This document shows, piece after piece, positions 26,072-32,723 of a stretch of DNA of 64,000 nucleotides. The DNA comes from an uncultured Cyclobacteriaceae bacterium (GTDB lineage Bacteria; Bacteroidota; Bacteroidia; Cytophagales; Cyclobacteriaceae). The stretch is taken from positions 124,001-188,000 of the forward strand of contig CAKZRQ010000016.1 in NCBI GenBank assembly GCA_937146645.1, in the 5' to 3' direction. Positions within the stretch are counted from its first letter, which is position 1, and each line of letters starts with the position of its first letter. The notes under the pieces are model-generated. The model saw only the letters and a list, made by a program, of their open reading frames with translations, searched no databases and was not told the DNA's origin. Made by a program: the position numbers and the translations under genes.

Positions 26072-27394
26072 ATGAGAATAATGAAATTTGGGGGTACCTC
26101 TGTGGGACGTCCCGAACGTATGCATCAGGTGATGGAATTGGTATCGAATACTGGAGAGGATACCCTGGTGGTTCTTTCTGCATTATCAGGAACCACGAAT
26201 TCACTGACACAAATTGGTGAGGCTTTGGCGGCTGCTGATAAGCCGCTGGCCAAAGAAAGAATCGATACGCTGAATGAGCATTACCTGGATTTTTATCCAA
26301 AGCTTCTAAAAACTGAAGAGGGTAGAAAGAAAGCCAGAGCGGTGGTTGATGAGCATTTTGAGTTTCTGAATATCCTTCTCAAAATCTCATTTAATGAAGC
26401 TTTAAATCTTGACATTTTGGCTCAGGGAGAGCTTCTCTCCACAAAGCTTTTCTTTATTCTTCTCGAGGAGAAAAAGGCTGATGCAGTCTTTTTGCCTGCC
26501 CTGGATTTTATGAGCATCGATGAAAATGGAGAACCTGAACTCGAAAAGATTTCCAAGAAATTATCGGCAATTCTTGAAGGGTACGAAGGAGCAAATAGGC
26601 TCTTCATTACTCAGGGCTACATCTGTAAAAATCACAGAAACGAAGTTGACAACCTGAAGCGGGGAGGAAGTGATTACACGGCTTCATTGATCGCTGCGGC
26701 GGTTAATGCCAGGGTCTGTGAAATCTGGACGGATATCGATGGGATGCACAATAACGATCCCAGAATTGTGGACCGAACCAGGCCTATCGCACAGCTCTCA
26801 TTCGATGAGGCAGCAGAGCTTGCTTACTTTGGGGCGAAGATTCTCCATCCAGCTTCCATCTGGCCAGCACAGCAATACAATATTCCCGTTCGACTTTTGA
26901 ATACTATGCAGCCTGAGGCTCAGGGGACAATAATTAAGGATGAAGTTCCTAGAGTCGGAGTGAAAGCTATTGCGGCAAAAGACGGGATCACCGCGATCAA
27001 GATTAAGTCCAGCCGAATGCTCTTGGCTTATGGTTTCTTAAGAAAAGTTTTTGAGATTTTTGAAAAGTATAAGACTCCAATTGATATGATCACCACATCG
27101 GAGGTGGCAGTTTCTGTGACGATTGACGAGCTTGGAAACCTTGAGCATATTGTGGAGGAGCTGAAAGCTTTCGGAATAGTGGAGGTTGATTCGGATCAGT
27201 CTATTATTTGCATTGTGGGCAATAGAATAGCCGAGGATGAAGGAACACTTAAGTCCGTGCTTGACGCCTTGAAGGGAATTTCAGTGAGAATGCTTTCTTA
27301 TGGGGGAAGTAGGCATAATGTTTCAGTTTTGGTAGATTCCAAAGTGAAAAAAGATGCCCTGTCTCAATTGAATGAGGGAGTTTTTTCTTGGTAA
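26072..27394 (+). CDS. Aspartate kinase (monofunctional)
   Basis: 440 residues. The kinase start MKFGGTSVGRPERM, the substrate loop RGGSDYTASLIAAAVNA and WTDIDGMHNNDPRIV are diagnostic; the C-terminal third has two ACT-like domains (SRMLLAYGFLRKVFEIFEKY, SIICIVGNRIAED) for feedback control by lysine or threonine. It has no homoserine dehydrogenase domain. It phosphorylates aspartate for lysine, threonine, methionine and diaminopimelate. It overlaps the frame of the next small gene. Confidence 0.93.
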   Translation: MRIMKFGGTSVGRPERMHQVMELVSNTGEDTLVVLSALSGTTNSLTQIGEALAAADKPLAKERIDTLNEHYLDFYPKLLKTEEGRKKARAVVDEHFEFLNILLKISFNEALNLDILAQGELLSTKLFFILLEEKKADAVFLPALDFMSIDENGEPELEKISKKLSAILEGYEGANRLFITQGYICKNHRNEVDNLKRGGSDYTASLIAAAVNARVCEIWTDIDGMHNNDPRIVDRTRPIAQLSFDEAAELAYFGAKILHPASIWPAQQYNIPVRLLNTMQPEAQGTIIKDEVPRVGVKAIAAKDGITAIKIKSSRMLLAYGFLRKVFEIFEKYKTPIDMITTSEVAVSVTIDELGNLEHIVEELKAFGIVEVDSDQSIICIVGNRIAEDEGTLKSVLDALKGISVRMLSYGGSRHNVSVLVDSKVKKDALSQLNEGVFSW

Positions 27395-27405
27395 ATTTGC
27401 GTGAC

Positions 27406-27738
27406 ATGAGCGAGGAGATACAGAAAAAAAGCTACCTGCAAAAACTTCAGGATAAGTGGAATTTAGATAGCCTGAGACAGGTAATCATGGTTCTAATCGT
27501 GTTTGCTTTCACAGGAACAACCATTCTTTTCATCAAGCAACCTGTGCTTGATTTCTTTGGAGTTGAAAAAGGTGGTTTCGTAAATACCGTCTTCTACTTA
27601 CTTCTGGTCTTACCTCTTTATCAAATCCTACTACTGATCTATGGCTTTATTTTTGGTCAGTTCAAATTTTTCTGGGAGTGGGAGAAAAAGACTTTTGGTC
27701 GCATCGCCGGACTTTTTAAAAAGCGCCAAAAAGACTAA
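27406..27738 (+). CDS. Small membrane protein, DUF6787-like
   Basis: 110 residues if started at ATG 27406, just after the aspartokinase stop; a TTG at 27388 would extend it into that gene. Two membrane helices (VIMVLIVFAFTGTTILF and FYLLLVLPLYQILLLIYGFIF) are followed by a basic aromatic tail (FFWEWEKKTFGRI). The family resembles small Bacteroidota proteins labelled DUF6787. It converges with the regulator gene, with no space between stops. Confidence 0.7.
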   Translation: MSEEIQKKSYLQKLQDKWNLDSLRQVIMVLIVFAFTGTTILFIKQPVLDFFGVEKGGFVNTVFYLLLVLPLYQILLLIYGFIFGQFKFFWEWEKKTFGRIAGLFKKRQKD

Positions 27739-29016
27739 TCAGAACTCTTCCTCAAGGATGCTAATGCCCTTCGCATTTTGGAGATTCACAAAATCAATTT
27801 CACCGGTCCCCTTGAAGTGGTAAACCAATCCAATAATATCTCCTGGGTTGTTTTCGAAGCTGTCTTCGAATATAATTTCAGATCCTAGAAAAACGGATAC
27901 TTGTTGGTTTACAACAGAAACTTCCAAATCAATCCATTCTTCCGGTTCGATACCAAAGGCGGACAGATCAGTTTTTTTTCCATCTATCTGTTTTTCTGAA
28001 AGAAGTAATCCTAATTCTGAAGTGCAGCCTGGAATCGAAAAGTTAAAAACCATAGGTGCATCCTTAGTTAGGATGAGCATTTGCGCGAATTTACAAGCTT
28101 CATTTCCTCCAGTATAAGAGTTTCGAAACTTGGTTTTGAGGCTAAAGTTTTGAGCACTTATCTCTCCCAGATCATCAACGAAATAGATGCTGCTCACGGG
28201 TACTTCTGGTTTAAGGGCGATATTTTCCCGGGTGAAATCTTCTTCGGTAAGACTCAGAACTCCATTTCGGATTGATGGATCTTTCTCAAAATATATCGGA
28301 GTAGTTTCACGATTTACCAGGGGCAACCAATCACCACTTGGAATCAGAAGACCATGCTCCTTGACTATCTTATTTCCAACGAGCAATTTGGCATTGAAGA
28401 ATCCCGGATAGTAATAGACTGTTGTAGCCTGATTTTGAGTTGACTCCACCGAAAATTTCTTGCTTGAATCCCATGATTGTTGAATAAATACTGAGTCGGA
28501 AACGGAACTTGGCACGTCAAAATCAAATACTACTGAATTTGGGATGCCTTTGGATATGGGCTGGCTGCTGAATGAAAATAAGGTAGGATCTAATTCTTCT
28601 TCGTTAGCCTCCGTCTGATTCAAGCCCCAGATAATTACCAGCAATACTCCGACTCCAATTAGAATGGCACCAGCTCTCCAAAAGATGGAATTCTTTGGTT
28701 TGGGGGATTCAGGAATTTCCGAGATCGGTTCTGAATTTTCCGCTGGAGGAAGTGAGGCTGTAAACTCCAGGAAGTTTTCGAACCCTAGAAATTGGGCTAA
28801 GGCATTCAGCGTAGTCGGTTGGGGATCACTTTCATACTTAACTTTTCCCCATAGTCTTCGAAGAGTACTCACGCTGAGATTAACACCAGTTTTATCAAGA
28901 ATCTTTTCTCGAAGAAGCTCAAAATCGCTCGTTTTCCAATTTTCACTATCTCCCCATCCTAGCTTTTTTTCGATCTGAGTTAAACAATGCTGAAGGTGAT
29001 AGTTGGTCTTATTCAT
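27739..29016 (-). CDS. Membrane-anchored HTH protein with extracytoplasmic jelly-roll domain
   Basis: 425 residues in three parts. Residues 1-90: helical cytoplasmic region containing LSVSTLRRLWGKVKYE, an HTH type frequent in Cytophagales one-component regulators. About 113-131: one membrane helix (RAGAILIGVGVLLVIIW). 140-425: extracytoplasmic beta-rich region whose last 170 residues (EWIDLEVSVVNQQVSVFLG, DIIGLVYHFKGTGEIDFVNL) look like a concanavalin/LamG or 3-keto-disaccharide-hydrolase-type jelly roll. It probably binds a carbohydrate outside and regulates DNA inside. It is divergent from a secreted protein with a related jelly roll. Confidence 0.75.
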   Translation of the reverse strand: MNKTNYHLQHCLTQIEKKLGWGDSENWKTSDFELLREKILDKTGVNLSVSTLRRLWGKVKYESDPQPTTLNALAQFLGFENFLEFTASLPPAENSEPISEIPESPKPKNSIFWRAGAILIGVGVLLVIIWGLNQTEANEEELDPTLFSFSSQPISKGIPNSVVFDFDVPSSVSDSVFIQQSWDSSKKFSVESTQNQATTVYYYPGFFNAKLLVGNKIVKEHGLLIPSGDWLPLVNRETTPIYFEKDPSIRNGVLSLTEEDFTRENIALKPEVPVSSIYFVDDLGEISAQNFSLKTKFRNSYTGGNEACKFAQMLILTKDAPMVFNFSIPGCTSELGLLLSEKQIDGKKTDLSAFGIEPEEWIDLEVSVVNQQVSVFLGSEIIFEDSFENNPGDIIGLVYHFKGTGEIDFVNLQNAKGISILEEEF

Positions 29017-29180
29017 AAAGAAGAATGGCTTAGCTGAAGAAAGCTACTAAAAAGATTGAAATGAAAAAGTAATCCCTTTCCAATGGCCTTGAACTCACCT
29101 TGAACAGGCTTTGAAATTCTTTTTGCCCCTACTGGTACTACTTTTATTCTGAAATTAGAACATACCATAAACCAACTACC

Positions 29181-30578
29181 ATGAAACCACTATTGCTTTT
29201 TTTTATTTCCTTTTTGCTCTGTAATCATCTTTATGCCCAGAATGGAGAATACAGAAACCTTACTCTTGAAGCTGAAAACTGGGAGTCCACTTCAGGTGAT
29301 ATCGAATTTCGAAATGAGAATGGAATCCAAAAAATGATGCTTACTCCTGGAGTCGGCAAAGTCATTGCCAAGGATTTTGAATTCACTGACGGGACAGTCG
29401 AATTCACTACGCGAGACACTAAGGCGCTTTCCTTTTTCTTCAGAATGGAGAACAAGGATGAGAACGAGTATTTTTATCTACGGCCCGCCAGGGCTGGGAA
29501 TCCAAATGCGACGGACGCCTTTCAGTACGCTCCTTACATCAAAGGCGTTCTCATGTGGAATACCTATCCACAATTTCAGTCTAATGCAAACTATACCACG
29601 GATGGTGAGAACGACTTCAAGTTCGTTATTTCTGGATCCAGAATGCTTATTTATATCAATAGCGATACACCAACCCTTGAAGTCGATCATTTGGAAGGGA
29701 ATTTCGATTCTGGCAGAATAGGGTTCGAGGGAGAAGCTGAAATTATGAATCTCAAGGTATCTAATGATGTCGAAGGTCTTTCTTCCATTTCTTCACCTGA
29801 TCCGACAGCTTATGATCCGCGATATATCCGTGAATGGGCAGTGAGCGAGGCTATTGACATTCCTGGAAAAATTGACTTCAGCTACGAATATCTTCCTTCA
29901 CCTGAAACCCAATGGACGGTAGAGAAAACCGAGAGAAGAGGATTTTTGAACCTTTCTAGGATGTTTGGGAATGTGGAAGGAAAGCGGCTCAACTGGCTGA
30001 AATTGAAAATCGAGTCGGATGAAGATCAAACCAAAACGCTGGACCTTGGATACCTCACGGAAGTCTGGATTTTCTTGAATGGACAAATGACCTTTTTGGA
30101 CAAAAACCTGGAAGGAAGACTTATGGCTAAAACTCCTGATGGGAGGCTTTCGGTAGATAATTCTTCTGTTCCTCTAGTCTTGAAAAAAGGGAACAATGAA
30201 TTGATTATTGGTATTGCGAATACTGCCTGGGGAACGGGTGCTATGGCTAGATTCGATAACATGAATGGAATTCGAGTGATGCCTGACCCGACCTTTGATT
30301 CCAGAATGATCAAGCTCTCCAAGGAGTCTCTATCAACTTTTGAGGGGAATTATGCTATTCCTGGTTTTGATGAAGATTTGGTGGTCAATTCTGACGAGTA
30401 CTCGATTATTATCAAAAGTCCGGTTTTCAATGGTACGGCTTACCCAAAATCTGATTCACGATTTTTTGTGAGGGAAATGGAATTGGATATCCAATTTAGT
30501 TTCGAACCTGACGGAAAGGTCTCAGTTCTGGACTTCATCGTAGATGAGGCCAGTGTTTTGAAAGTGGATAAGAAATAG
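29181..30578 (+). CDS. Secreted jelly-roll/LamG-like protein
   Basis: 465 residues with a signal peptide (LLLFFISFLLCNHLYAQ). Residues 25-200 form a concanavalin-like beta-sandwich: GTVEFTTRDTKALSFFFR, FYLRPARAG, FKFVISGSRMLIYIN and GRIGFEGEAEIMNLKVSND. The middle (about 215-375) resembles galactose-binding jelly rolls, including TEVWIFLNGQ and NNELIIGIANTAW. The C-terminal 90 residues are unassigned. It is probably a glycan-binding or modifying protein of unknown substrate. It faces the membrane HTH regulator across 164 bases, which probably controls it. Confidence 0.75.
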   Translation: MKPLLLFFISFLLCNHLYAQNGEYRNLTLEAENWESTSGDIEFRNENGIQKMMLTPGVGKVIAKDFEFTDGTVEFTTRDTKALSFFFRMENKDENEYFYLRPARAGNPNATDAFQYAPYIKGVLMWNTYPQFQSNANYTTDGENDFKFVISGSRMLIYINSDTPTLEVDHLEGNFDSGRIGFEGEAEIMNLKVSNDVEGLSSISSPDPTAYDPRYIREWAVSEAIDIPGKIDFSYEYLPSPETQWTVEKTERRGFLNLSRMFGNVEGKRLNWLKLKIESDEDQTKTLDLGYLTEVWIFLNGQMTFLDKNLEGRLMAKTPDGRLSVDNSSVPLVLKKGNNELIIGIANTAWGTGAMARFDNMNGIRVMPDPTFDSRMIKLSKESLSTFEGNYAIPGFDEDLVVNSDEYSIIIKSPVFNGTAYPKSDSRFFVREMELDIQFSFEPDGKVSVLDFIVDEASVLKVDKK

Positions 30579-30602: not shown

Positions 30603-32723
30603 TCAGGAAATCCGACTCCAATTGACCGCATGCTTCTTTTGATTCCTGATCTGGTTGAGGATAGGTCGATTTTCTTCCTTGCTCAGATCAGGGTCATTTC
30701 CTAAAGTCAGCTCTGCTGCATCCCTCGCTAAGGTGAGCAAAGGAGCATCCTTGCTTAGATCAGCGATTAGCAAATCTGTGACCCCGCTTTGTTGGGTTCC
30801 CATCATGTCTCCAGGACCACGAAGTTTGAGATCCACATCAGCGATTTCGAAACCATCATTTGTTCTGACCATGGTGTCCAGCCTGACTCTGGAGTCTTTG
30901 GAAAGCTCATATTTGCTCATTAGCACGCAGTAGCTTTGCTCAGCTCCTCTACCAACTCGACCTCTCAGCTGATGAAGCTGCGAAAGTCCGAAACGCTCTG
31001 CATTCTCGATGATCATCACTGAGGCATTCGGGACATTCACCCCAACTTCGATCACCGTGGTTGCAACCATTATTTTGGTTTCGCCCTTCACAAAACGCTG
31101 CATTTCGTAATCCTTGGCATCGGCTTTCATTCCACCATGAACGATACTCAGCGGAAACTCAGGGAAAGCCCTGGAAATACTTTCAAAGCCATCCATCAGG
31201 TTCTTCAAGTCAAGCTTTTGCGACTCCTCTATGAGTGGGTAGACAATATAGACCTGACGGCCTTTGAGAATCTCTTTTTTGATAAAGCTAAAGACGAGCG
31301 ATCGGTCCTTATCATAGCGATGAACGGTCTGGATGGGTTTTCTACCAGCAGGGAGCTCATCGATAACTGAAATCTCCAAGTCACCATACAGCGTCATGGC
31401 TAAGGTCCTTGGAATAGGAGTGGCGGTCATGACCAAGACATGGGGAAGAAAATTCTCATTTTTAGCCCAAAGCTTTGCCCTCTGGGCTACGCCAAATCTA
31501 TGCTGCTCGTCCACAATAGCCAGACCTAAATTTTGGAACTGAACCACATCCTCAAGTAGTGCATGAGTGCCAATCAGGATCTTTAGCTCTCCGTTCAATA
31601 GCTCTTCATGAATCTGTTTTCTCTCACTTTTCTTACTTGAGCCTGTCAGCAAAGCGATCTTGAGATTCATTAAATCAGCATATTCCTTTAGACCCTCGTA
31701 GTGCTGATTTGCTAGAATTTCAGTAGGTGCCATCAAGCATGCCTGAGCTCCGGAACTAATGGCGAGAAGCATGCAGATGAAAGCAACCATGGTCTTTCCA
31801 CTACCGACATCGCCTTGAATGAGACGATTCATTTGCTGACCGGATTTCATGTCCCTATAAGATTCCCGAATCACCCTTTTTTGGGCATTGGTGAGCTCAA
31901 AGGGAATATGGTCTGCATAGAACTTATTGAGCAAATCGGTATTGGAAAGAACCTGCCCTGGAGATTTCTCCGTGCGCGTGAGCTTCATTTTCAGAAGCCT
32001 CAATTGAAGAAAGAAAAACTCCTCAAACTTTAGCCTTTTCTTTGCTGCCTGGAGGGCTTTACCCTCACTTGGGAAGTGAATTTCTTTAAGTGCAGTTTTC
32101 TTACCGATTAGTCCGAATCGGTTCATAATTTCCGAGGAAAGGGTCTCCCTAATTTGATTTTGGCTTACCGCCAAAAGTTGTTCCTGAAGCTTGGAAATCC
32201 CTCTGGAATCAAGAAATCTGGCCCTGAGTTTTTCAGTGGTAGAATAGACCGGCTGATAACTATTTCTTTGCTCTCTTGACTGAGAGAGAGGTTCCATCTC
32301 CGGATGCGCAATACTCCACTTTCTGCCGTACTGTGCGGGCTTACCGAAGAAAACGTAAACGGCCCCGGGTGGTAATTTTTTTTGAACCCATTGAATTCCT
32401 TTGAACCAGGTCATTTCCATGGTTCCAGTTTCGTCTATTACCTCGGCTACCAGCCTTCTTTTTCCGCCTGCTCCGATGATTTCAACCTTTTTAACCTTAG
32501 CTATCACCTGAACATTTTCCAGGTCTCTACTCAGCTGATTTATTTTCCAGAACTTGCTGCGGTCCTCGTATCGAAATGGATAGTGCTGAATTAAATCCCC
32601 GTAAGTAAAAATGGAAAGCTCCTTATTGATTAGGGCGGCTTTTTGGGGGCCGACACCTTTCAGGAATTCTATTTTCGTATCAAAAATACCGGGCAATTGG
32701 GAGGGGTTTAAACTGATCCACAA
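30603..32723 (-). CDS. recG: ATP-dependent DNA helicase RecG
   Basis: 706 residues. An N-terminal wedge/OB domain (FLKGVGPQKAALINKE) is followed by superfamily 2 helicase motifs: QGDVGSGKTMVAFICMLL (Walker A), AIVDEQHRFGV (Walker B), MTATPIPRTLAMTLYGDLE, and VNVPNASVMIIENAERFGLSQLHQLRGRVGRG (motifs V-VI). RecG reverses stalled forks and processes Holliday junctions. It is 34 bases after a sugar-kinase-like gene on the same strand. Confidence 0.95.
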   Translation of the reverse strand: MWISLNPSQLPGIFDTKIEFLKGVGPQKAALINKELSIFTYGDLIQHYPFRYEDRSKFWKINQLSRDLENVQVIAKVKKVEIIGAGGKRRLVAEVIDETGTMEMTWFKGIQWVQKKLPPGAVYVFFGKPAQYGRKWSIAHPEMEPLSQSREQRNSYQPVYSTTEKLRARFLDSRGISKLQEQLLAVSQNQIRETLSSEIMNRFGLIGKKTALKEIHFPSEGKALQAAKKRLKFEEFFFLQLRLLKMKLTRTEKSPGQVLSNTDLLNKFYADHIPFELTNAQKRVIRESYRDMKSGQQMNRLIQGDVGSGKTMVAFICMLLAISSGAQACLMAPTEILANQHYEGLKEYADLMNLKIALLTGSSKKSERKQIHEELLNGELKILIGTHALLEDVVQFQNLGLAIVDEQHRFGVAQRAKLWAKNENFLPHVLVMTATPIPRTLAMTLYGDLEISVIDELPAGRKPIQTVHRYDKDRSLVFSFIKKEILKGRQVYIVYPLIEESQKLDLKNLMDGFESISRAFPEFPLSIVHGGMKADAKDYEMQRFVKGETKIMVATTVIEVGVNVPNASVMIIENAERFGLSQLHQLRGRVGRGAEQSYCVLMSKYELSKDSRVRLDTMVRTNDGFEIADVDLKLRGPGDMMGTQQSGVTDLLIADLSKDAPLLTLARDAAELTLGNDPDLSKEENRPILNQIRNQKKHAVNWSRIS

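Follow-up and report, generated by a model that had tools for sequence, protein, structure and literature searches.

Transmembrane transcription regulators such as ToxR, CadC and TcpP join a cytoplasmic DNA-binding domain, a single membrane helix and an extracytoplasmic sensor, and in ToxR and CadC the DNA-binding domain is an OmpR-type winged helix (Trans_reg_C). One report describes these regulators as enriched in Bacteroidota and the way in which transcription factors act from the membrane as poorly understood (PMC10269533). We analyzed a divergent gene pair in a 64,000-nucleotide stretch of DNA from an uncultured Cyclobacteriaceae bacterium (NCBI GenBank assembly GCA_937146645.1, contig CAKZRQ010000016.1, positions 124,001 to 188,000; hereafter the window). 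Gene A (27739..29016, minus strand) encodes a predicted membrane-spanning one-component regulator of 425 residues, gene B (29181..30578, plus strand) encodes a predicted secreted protein of 465 residues, and 164 bases separate the two. We think it fairly probable (about 70%) that A is a membrane-tethered one-component activator whose helix-turn-helix (HTH) domain binds an array of direct repeats between the genes head to tail, one molecule per helical turn, turning on B. The initial annotation of this locus had both open reading frames, their orientation and the gap right; it passed over the repeat array, which carries most of the evidence.

The likeness of A to ToxR, CadC and TcpP lies in its predicted overall plan. 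It differs from ToxR and CadC in a DNA-binding domain that is XRE-like by profile and in a sensor made of an immunoglobulin-like (Ig-like) and a lectin-like domain, and no Trans_reg_C-type Pfam match was found among 76 members of the A family (E<=0.1). On these predictions we would place A among the transmembrane transcription regulators and not in the ToxR/CadC family. The SusR-like and hybrid two-component system (HTCS) regulators of Bacteroides are similar in serving secreted carbohydrate-related genes through direct-repeat sites on one face of the DNA. For HTCS regulators the repeats are predicted to form two sites separated by 21 bp on average, and for SusR the two lie 67 or 77 bp apart (PMC3878776). 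The window system has instead three to four units at 10-11 bp, so that, in this comparison of the sites, the SusR-like spacing of two direct repeats is absent, and it has no histidine kinase domain. A does not fit a hybrid two-component system, since neither histidine kinase nor receiver domains were found in it by Pfam (the same 76 members and threshold) or in the structural model.

OmpR/PhoB-type operators share with the window array the direct repeats and the 11 bp period, bind their regulators cooperatively, and in the case of PhoB lie close to the -35 region. The PhoP operator is given as 7-bp motifs with a 4-bp spacer (PMC4832192). A differs from these regulators in its DNA-binding fold, number of units, membrane location and lack of a phosphorylation domain. 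Our searches of the open-access literature, which leaves most subscription papers outside its coverage, yielded no description of the A family or its operator. The regulator class is a known one, and it is the combination of DNA-binding domain, sensor and one-turn array that we could not match.

Direct repeats and promoter layout between the genes

Three putative operator units follow one another on the plus strand of the gap as direct repeats at 11 bp: TTGAACTCACC (29089..29099), TTGAACAGGCT (29100..29110) and TTGAAATTCTT (29111..29121), with cores TTGAAC, TTGAAC and TTGAAA. We compared the window with 80 loci, which rank highest among at least 506 matches to the A sensor, by reading 160 nucleotides upstream of A towards B in each of the 81 regions. 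TTG pairs were found at 10 bp 117 times and at 11 bp 41 times, against dinucleotide-shuffle means of 8.2 and 8.9, respectively. Of the 81 regions, 74 carry an array of two or more units spaced 10-11 bp, against 13.4 in shuffles, and 54 carry three units, against 0.95; the reverse strand gave six three-unit arrays. Keeping one representative per 70%-identity cluster left three-unit arrays in 36 of 58 regions and two-unit arrays in 52, and the consensus unit is about aayTTGaAC. A further 19 loci have a three-unit array in 11 cases and lack one in eight. In all, about 100 loci of the at least 506 relatives were read. Genes in these loci were called as the longest open reading frames. Several of the calls have a wrong start, the called A of L071 is truncated, and L044 and L064 are one record.

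The array also keeps a fixed distance to a promoter element. A -7-like box of the B promoter, TACTTTTA (29139..29146, plus strand), with five of six matches to TAnnTTTG, lies 28 bp downstream of the first base in unit 3. Boxes with at least five of six matches occurred at exactly 28 bp in 29 of the 74 array regions and at 29 bp in two, and one unit further, where the last unit is degenerate, at 39 bp in 13 and at 40 bp in three; the expectation was about 0.65 per position, calculated from 38.4 over the whole tail in letter shuffles. Overall, 46 of the 74 regions could be anchored on a box, and in the 32 of these with enough upstream sequence the anchored TTG starts fall at -59, -49, -39 and -28. 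One study places the TAnnTTTG box at -12 to -5 relative to the start site (PMC9723704), and the last TTG would therefore lie at about -40, with its unit covering -33. By the position of its box, B of the window would start near 29151. Candidate -7 boxes for A itself, which might have hinted at autorepression, are loosely clustered on the A side, 15-45 bp from the array, and we draw no conclusion from them.

Relatives with another HTH sequence provide a second view of this layout (HTH types 1, 2 and 3 are labels coined in this analysis). Four type-2 relatives (L055, L058, L059 and L061), members of a distant subgroup of A, have TTTTGA/C-type units at the same period, and their arrays end 28 or 29 bp before a five-of-six box in all four cases, L058 and L061 being near-copies. 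At most 2 of 2000 shuffles match the layout at each locus. The type-2 loci therefore keep the layout, with a unit sequence that differs along with the DNA-binding domain. Among three type-1 loci that had been held out, L184 has three TTG units, L192 has two and one ATG unit, and L183 has none. Type 3 (family f43, outside the class) was found in five of 92 genomes in a wider search. Possible 11-bp units around ATGAACGG can be seen in that family (L185-L189) and are too weak to claim; L186-L188 have a B-like partner by eye.

Four Mucilaginibacter loci (L088, L092, L096 and L097) have TTGTAC units that make parts of the array nearly palindromic (cTTGTACaag). Their divergent genes encode, by eye, a small DoxX-like protein and a serine-hydrolase-like protein; the DoxX-like protein of L088 has no Pfam match.

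In a control set of 454 stretches that lie upstream of other genes at these loci, not all of them promoters, three-unit arrays occurred three times in the sense and twice in the antisense direction. In the 4.3 Mb genome of the window species, the array between A and B is the single match to a strict three-unit pattern, and A seems to act there as a local regulator of a single target. The same pattern gave eight matches in seven of 97 genomes, with only the window match adjoining an A gene, while its reversed control gave three matches, all in one genome. It is too strict for most true arrays and therefore tests uniqueness in the own genome only. We considered whether the array might be unrelated to A, being the site of some other widespread regulator or a core promoter feature of genes for secreted proteins, an idea that fits the persistence of the array at promoters of differing targets. 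It would also fit an orphan B gene in genome G041 (L063:6417-6483), which has no A beside it and nevertheless carries the units ATGAAT, TTGAAC, ATGAAC and TTGAAC, spaced 10, 10 and 11 bp, with a five-of-six box at 28 bp. However, G041 encodes two A proteins on other contigs, so that control of the orphan B at a distance is possible. The five hits in the 454 control stretches, the single strict match in the own genome and the different core in the type-2 group likewise speak against an unrelated site, and we regard this explanation as very improbable.

In the mechanism that we favor, the XRE-like domain of A would bind three to four TTGAAC-type units, repeated every 10-11 bp, in the promoter region that the two genes share. 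With its start 28 bp ahead of the TAnnTTTG box at the B promoter, the last unit would lie at about -40 and overlap the -33 region. The state of the periplasmic Ig-like and lectin-like domains would bring several tethered A monomers together, and the clustered monomers may then recruit RNA polymerase to B in the style of a class II activator. The active form would thus be a cluster of monomers on one face of the DNA rather than a soluble dimer on a palindrome. A probably regulates its own gene as well.

The overlap of the last unit with the -33 region would also suit a repressor, and many XRE-fold regulators are repressors. A would then occupy the -33 region and block the polymerase until a periplasmic signal released it. 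Against such a role, the array runs in one direction (the 54 sense and six antisense three-unit arrays above), and its exact distance to the box is kept in many divergent loci. One direction and an exact distance suit contact with the polymerase better than blocking, which tolerates shifts, and we therefore consider repression unlikely.

Several observations weigh against activation by A through this array. The start of A is close to the array too, and the array may therefore serve to repress A, or B. Seven of the 81 regions have no two-unit array (L071, L079, L081, L094, L118, L127 and L128), and the eight further loci without a three-unit array are L049, L051, L052, L054, L056, L057, L060 and L062, several of which show two units by eye. 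L060 and L062 branch beside the type-2 clade. A five-of-six box at 28/29 or 39/40 bp is missing from 28 of the 74 array regions, and a five-of-six box was found in none of the three type-1 hold-outs (L183, L184 and L192). Type-3 arrays are weak, with pairs in three of five and a strength reached by 4-9% of shuffles. Seven strict matches, in six other genomes, lie away from any A. In addition, membership of A in an HTH class appears to be a matter of profile similarity, as no Pfam HTH family matched any of the 76 members scanned at E<=0.1. Finally, one report describes the -33 element for Bacteroides and as not found in Flavobacterium johnsoniae, and on that account the element is not established outside Bacteroides (PMC7366714).

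Predicted architecture of A

The model of A (mean predicted local distance difference test score, pLDDT, of 92) has helices at residues 3-19, 29-43, 49-55, 67-76 and 82-88, an isolated long helix at 110-135, and beta structure from residue 148 to the end. Residues 1-90 (28747..29016, minus strand) form the candidate XRE-like HTH domain, in which the segment STLRRLWG was named the recognition helix by analogy. An hhalign comparison of the HTH profile with 11 HTH_3 domains from the same genome gave a probability of 78% and a score of 28.7, against 15.7 for the best of 30 column-shuffled controls. A profile search of the PDB with the HTH alignment returned chance hits only and no XRE or lambda-repressor-like hit. 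We found no paralogue of A, or of its HTH, in its own genome at E<=1.

The helix at residues 110-135 (28612..28689, minus strand) is a predicted single membrane span, read from the hydrophobicity of the sequence, with the topology deduced accordingly. One chain would thus hold a DNA-binding domain and a membrane helix, with a sensory part of two beta domains C-terminal to the helix on the extracytoplasmic side. The HTH-like cytoplasmic part named in the initial annotation is supported by the profile score above shuffles and by the model helices. Its single membrane helix also stood, whereas its one extracytoplasmic beta domain became two.

The first of these (residues 140-247; 28276..28599, minus strand) is defined by the model and by conservation, takes its Ig-like name from the strand content of the whole-protein model, and holds the motifs IQQSWD and YYYPGFFNAKL. 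The second is a predicted concanavalin/galectin-like sandwich (residues 248-425; 27742..28275, minus strand), also delimited by conservation. Structural comparison of residues 227-417 with VIA gave Z scores of up to 11.4 against galectin and L-type lectin folds and of 10.8 against CBM66 (4azz_A; root-mean-square deviation, rmsd, of 3.8 over 150 aligned residues). We relied on VIA for A and B alike, as the Foldseek lists for both models contained many large unrelated chains with poor superposition. The fold-search list for A is filled by sandwich matches and barely probes the HTH and Ig-like parts; a PDB profile search with the A alignment gave no hit at E<=1.

Conservation is uneven across these domains. 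The mean majority frequency is 0.60 for the HTH, 0.60 for the Ig-like domain and 0.48 for the sandwich, and positions conserved at >=90% number 25 of 108 in the Ig-like domain against 13 of 178 in the sandwich. The near-invariant sandwich positions are mainly Gly, Phe, Leu and Cys (the invariant Cys308 and Cys331), with Asp350 and Ser352 as the polar ones. These residues do not look like a conserved lectin site.

Conservation and exchange of the divergent pair

A B-type domain is encoded by the immediately divergent gene in 51 of the 80 Bacteroidota loci and within the divergent gene run in 63. Together with the architecture, this conserved pairing supports the proposal of the initial annotation that a transmembrane one-component regulator faces its likely target. 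The 1132 open reading frames of these loci include 72 B-type proteins, and 70 of them occupy positions -1 to -4 on the divergent strand. A simple heuristic finds a hydrophobic N-terminus in the nearest gene in 69 of the 74 cases in which that gene is divergent, compared with 191 of 500 other genes. Only the best-matching loci were read here, and the share of B may therefore be lower in the whole family. In the additional loci L044, L045, L047, L048, L051, L052, L053 and L055, A and B are divergent neighbours or have one open reading frame between them, and in L046 B lies further along the divergent run. Dyadobacter fermentans (L133) and a Chitinophaga are among the environmental relatives that have an A-B pair of their own. 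A spread sample of the phylum gave A matches in 12 of 395 genomes, and the family is therefore wide but patchy.

Closer to the window species, the 97 genomes of relatives contain A in 14 and B in 10, and all 10 with B also have A (Fisher p 8e-11, relatedness ignored). Conservation of the pair among close relatives held in one respect and failed in another: 52 of the 58 other same-genus genomes, some of them incomplete, have neither gene, while five have both and only one has A alone. The genes are therefore mostly present or absent together.

In the window, the pair is flanked by a small membrane-protein gene (27388-27738) and by a recG-like gene (30603-32723). Among 22 same-genus genomes in which the left flank was read, 20 have both flanks adjacent with neither A nor B between them; two of these (G014 and G021) carry A elsewhere. 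Of the other two, G019 has A at the site and one could not be decided. In G019, a small HTH gene and another small open reading frame lie between A and the same left flank, and in G037 the pair sits between the same two flanks (locus L045). The A proteins of G037 and G019 are only about 50% identical to that of the window. This flank survey and G037 indicate that A and B were gained or lost together at this site. Two same-genus loci encode a second, short B-like secreted protein after B (213 residues, L044:5815-6456, and 207 residues, L045:8916-9539).

A does not always face B. Seventeen of the 80 loci lack B in the divergent run; three of them encode a B at another place in the locus, and the remaining 14 do not. 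Proteins found in place of B include DUF2911 (L072), DoxX (L059), an aspartyl protease with PDZ (L130) and an Ig-domain/PD40-like protein (L049), and elsewhere B shares its divergent run with an alpha/beta hydrolase (L075) or a PD40 protein (L137). A sensor tree with 99 members, which has long branches, omits L044 and carries partner labels set by hand, needs 14 changes of the B/non-B label by parsimony, compared with an average of 23.8 for shuffled labels, and its well-supported branches force at least 12 of them. Had the sensor been tuned to the ligand of B, it would not be expected to survive so many changes of partner.

Protein B and the common fold of the two sandwiches

Protein B starts with a segment that resembles a signal peptide by eye, in agreement with its earlier description as secreted, and continues with beta domains (model mean pLDDT of 88.9). 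Its N-terminal sandwich (residues 25-202; 29253..29786, plus strand) is CBM66-like: on the predicted model, VIA gave a Z of 17.0 against CBM66 (4azz_A; rmsd 2.4, 151 aligned residues, 15% identity) and of 12.8-14.2 against 3-keto-glycoside hydratases, whose fold is similar. It differs from CBM66 in having no clear family-level sequence match to a solved member, 4azz_A appearing only at E 0.83 in a PDB profile search with the B alignment, and in its extra middle and C-terminal domains. Enterotoxin H appeared in that search at E 0.06 and was treated as chance. Members of CBM66 are known to bind the ends of fructans, and one member binds treated xanthan (PMC11002231). A C-terminal stretch (residues 380-451; 30318..30533, plus strand) is DUF3471-like by Pfam PF11954 (E 1.2e-4), at 22.9 bits under the curated cut-off of 29.3. 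Searches of Pfam, NCBIfam and PDB sequences with the single A and B proteins gave nothing useful beyond this sub-threshold match. PF06439 (3-keto-disaccharide hydrolase) has no match in B of the window; in B relatives its best E is 1.1e-7, and L089 scores 24.0 against a curated cut-off of 26.8.

The initial annotation had compared the ends of the two sandwiches and proposed that the sensor of A derives from the same fold as B, so that both might bind the same glycan. The resemblance is invisible to BLASTP (best E 0.88 for A against B), whereas at the level of profiles and folds it is real. A comparison of the two profiles gave a probability of 93% and a score of 47.7 over 57 columns, while 50 column shuffles reached at most 23.1 and the reversed profile 12.8. 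PF06439 matched 47 of 57 B relatives and 11 of 76 A relatives at E<=0.1, the latter matches not being tied to any part of A. Because of the profile comparison, the fold matches and the PF06439 matches in both families, the two sandwiches belong to one fold superfamily, as had been suggested. This fold is very common (galectins, L-type lectins, CBM66 and GH16), and therefore neither a common ancestry of this particular pair nor a common ligand follows from it.

The common fold superfamily, the profile similarity above shuffles, PF06439 in both families and the pairing with B in 63 of 80 loci are all compatible with a scheme in which A carries a copy of the B fold as its sandwich, both bind the same glycan and B is induced by its own ligand. 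However, the fold is widespread, the sandwich is less well conserved than the Ig-like domain, its conserved residues are mainly structural, and A is kept where the divergent run has no B, across the at least 12 forced label changes. With so common a fold and partners exchanged, derivation of the sensor from B or a shared glycan is not supported, and we consider this scheme quite improbable.

Alternatively, B may be both the target and a periplasmic partner of A, the two sandwiches associating so that B reports its own level or the state of its ligand to A, much as ToxS and VtrC act for ToxR and VtrA. Both proteins are predicted to be extracytoplasmic and share a common fold, and 57 of the 58 other genomes of the genus have either both genes or neither. 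The 17 of 80 loci that have no B in the divergent run, 14 of them with none in the stretch read, speak against this role, which appears rather improbable to us.

We offer tentatively, as somewhat less than an even chance, that an XRE-like family of membrane-tethered activators across Bacteroidota uses a one-turn repeat code, in which the units follow the HTH type and both the spacing and the distance to the -7 box are fixed. Regulator and array would form a portable cassette whose targets are often exchanged. Its sensor and the most frequent target would have a lectin-like fold in common, and possibly a ligand or an interface too. In the A family, regulators and operators come as natural pairs for which a site is predicted, the promoter geometry is fixed and two or more unit sequences are available. 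These pairs allow direct tests of the binding model, of how many monomers occupy a site and of the HTH-to-DNA code, and they name likely regulators for secreted lectin-like proteins in many environmental Bacteroidota.

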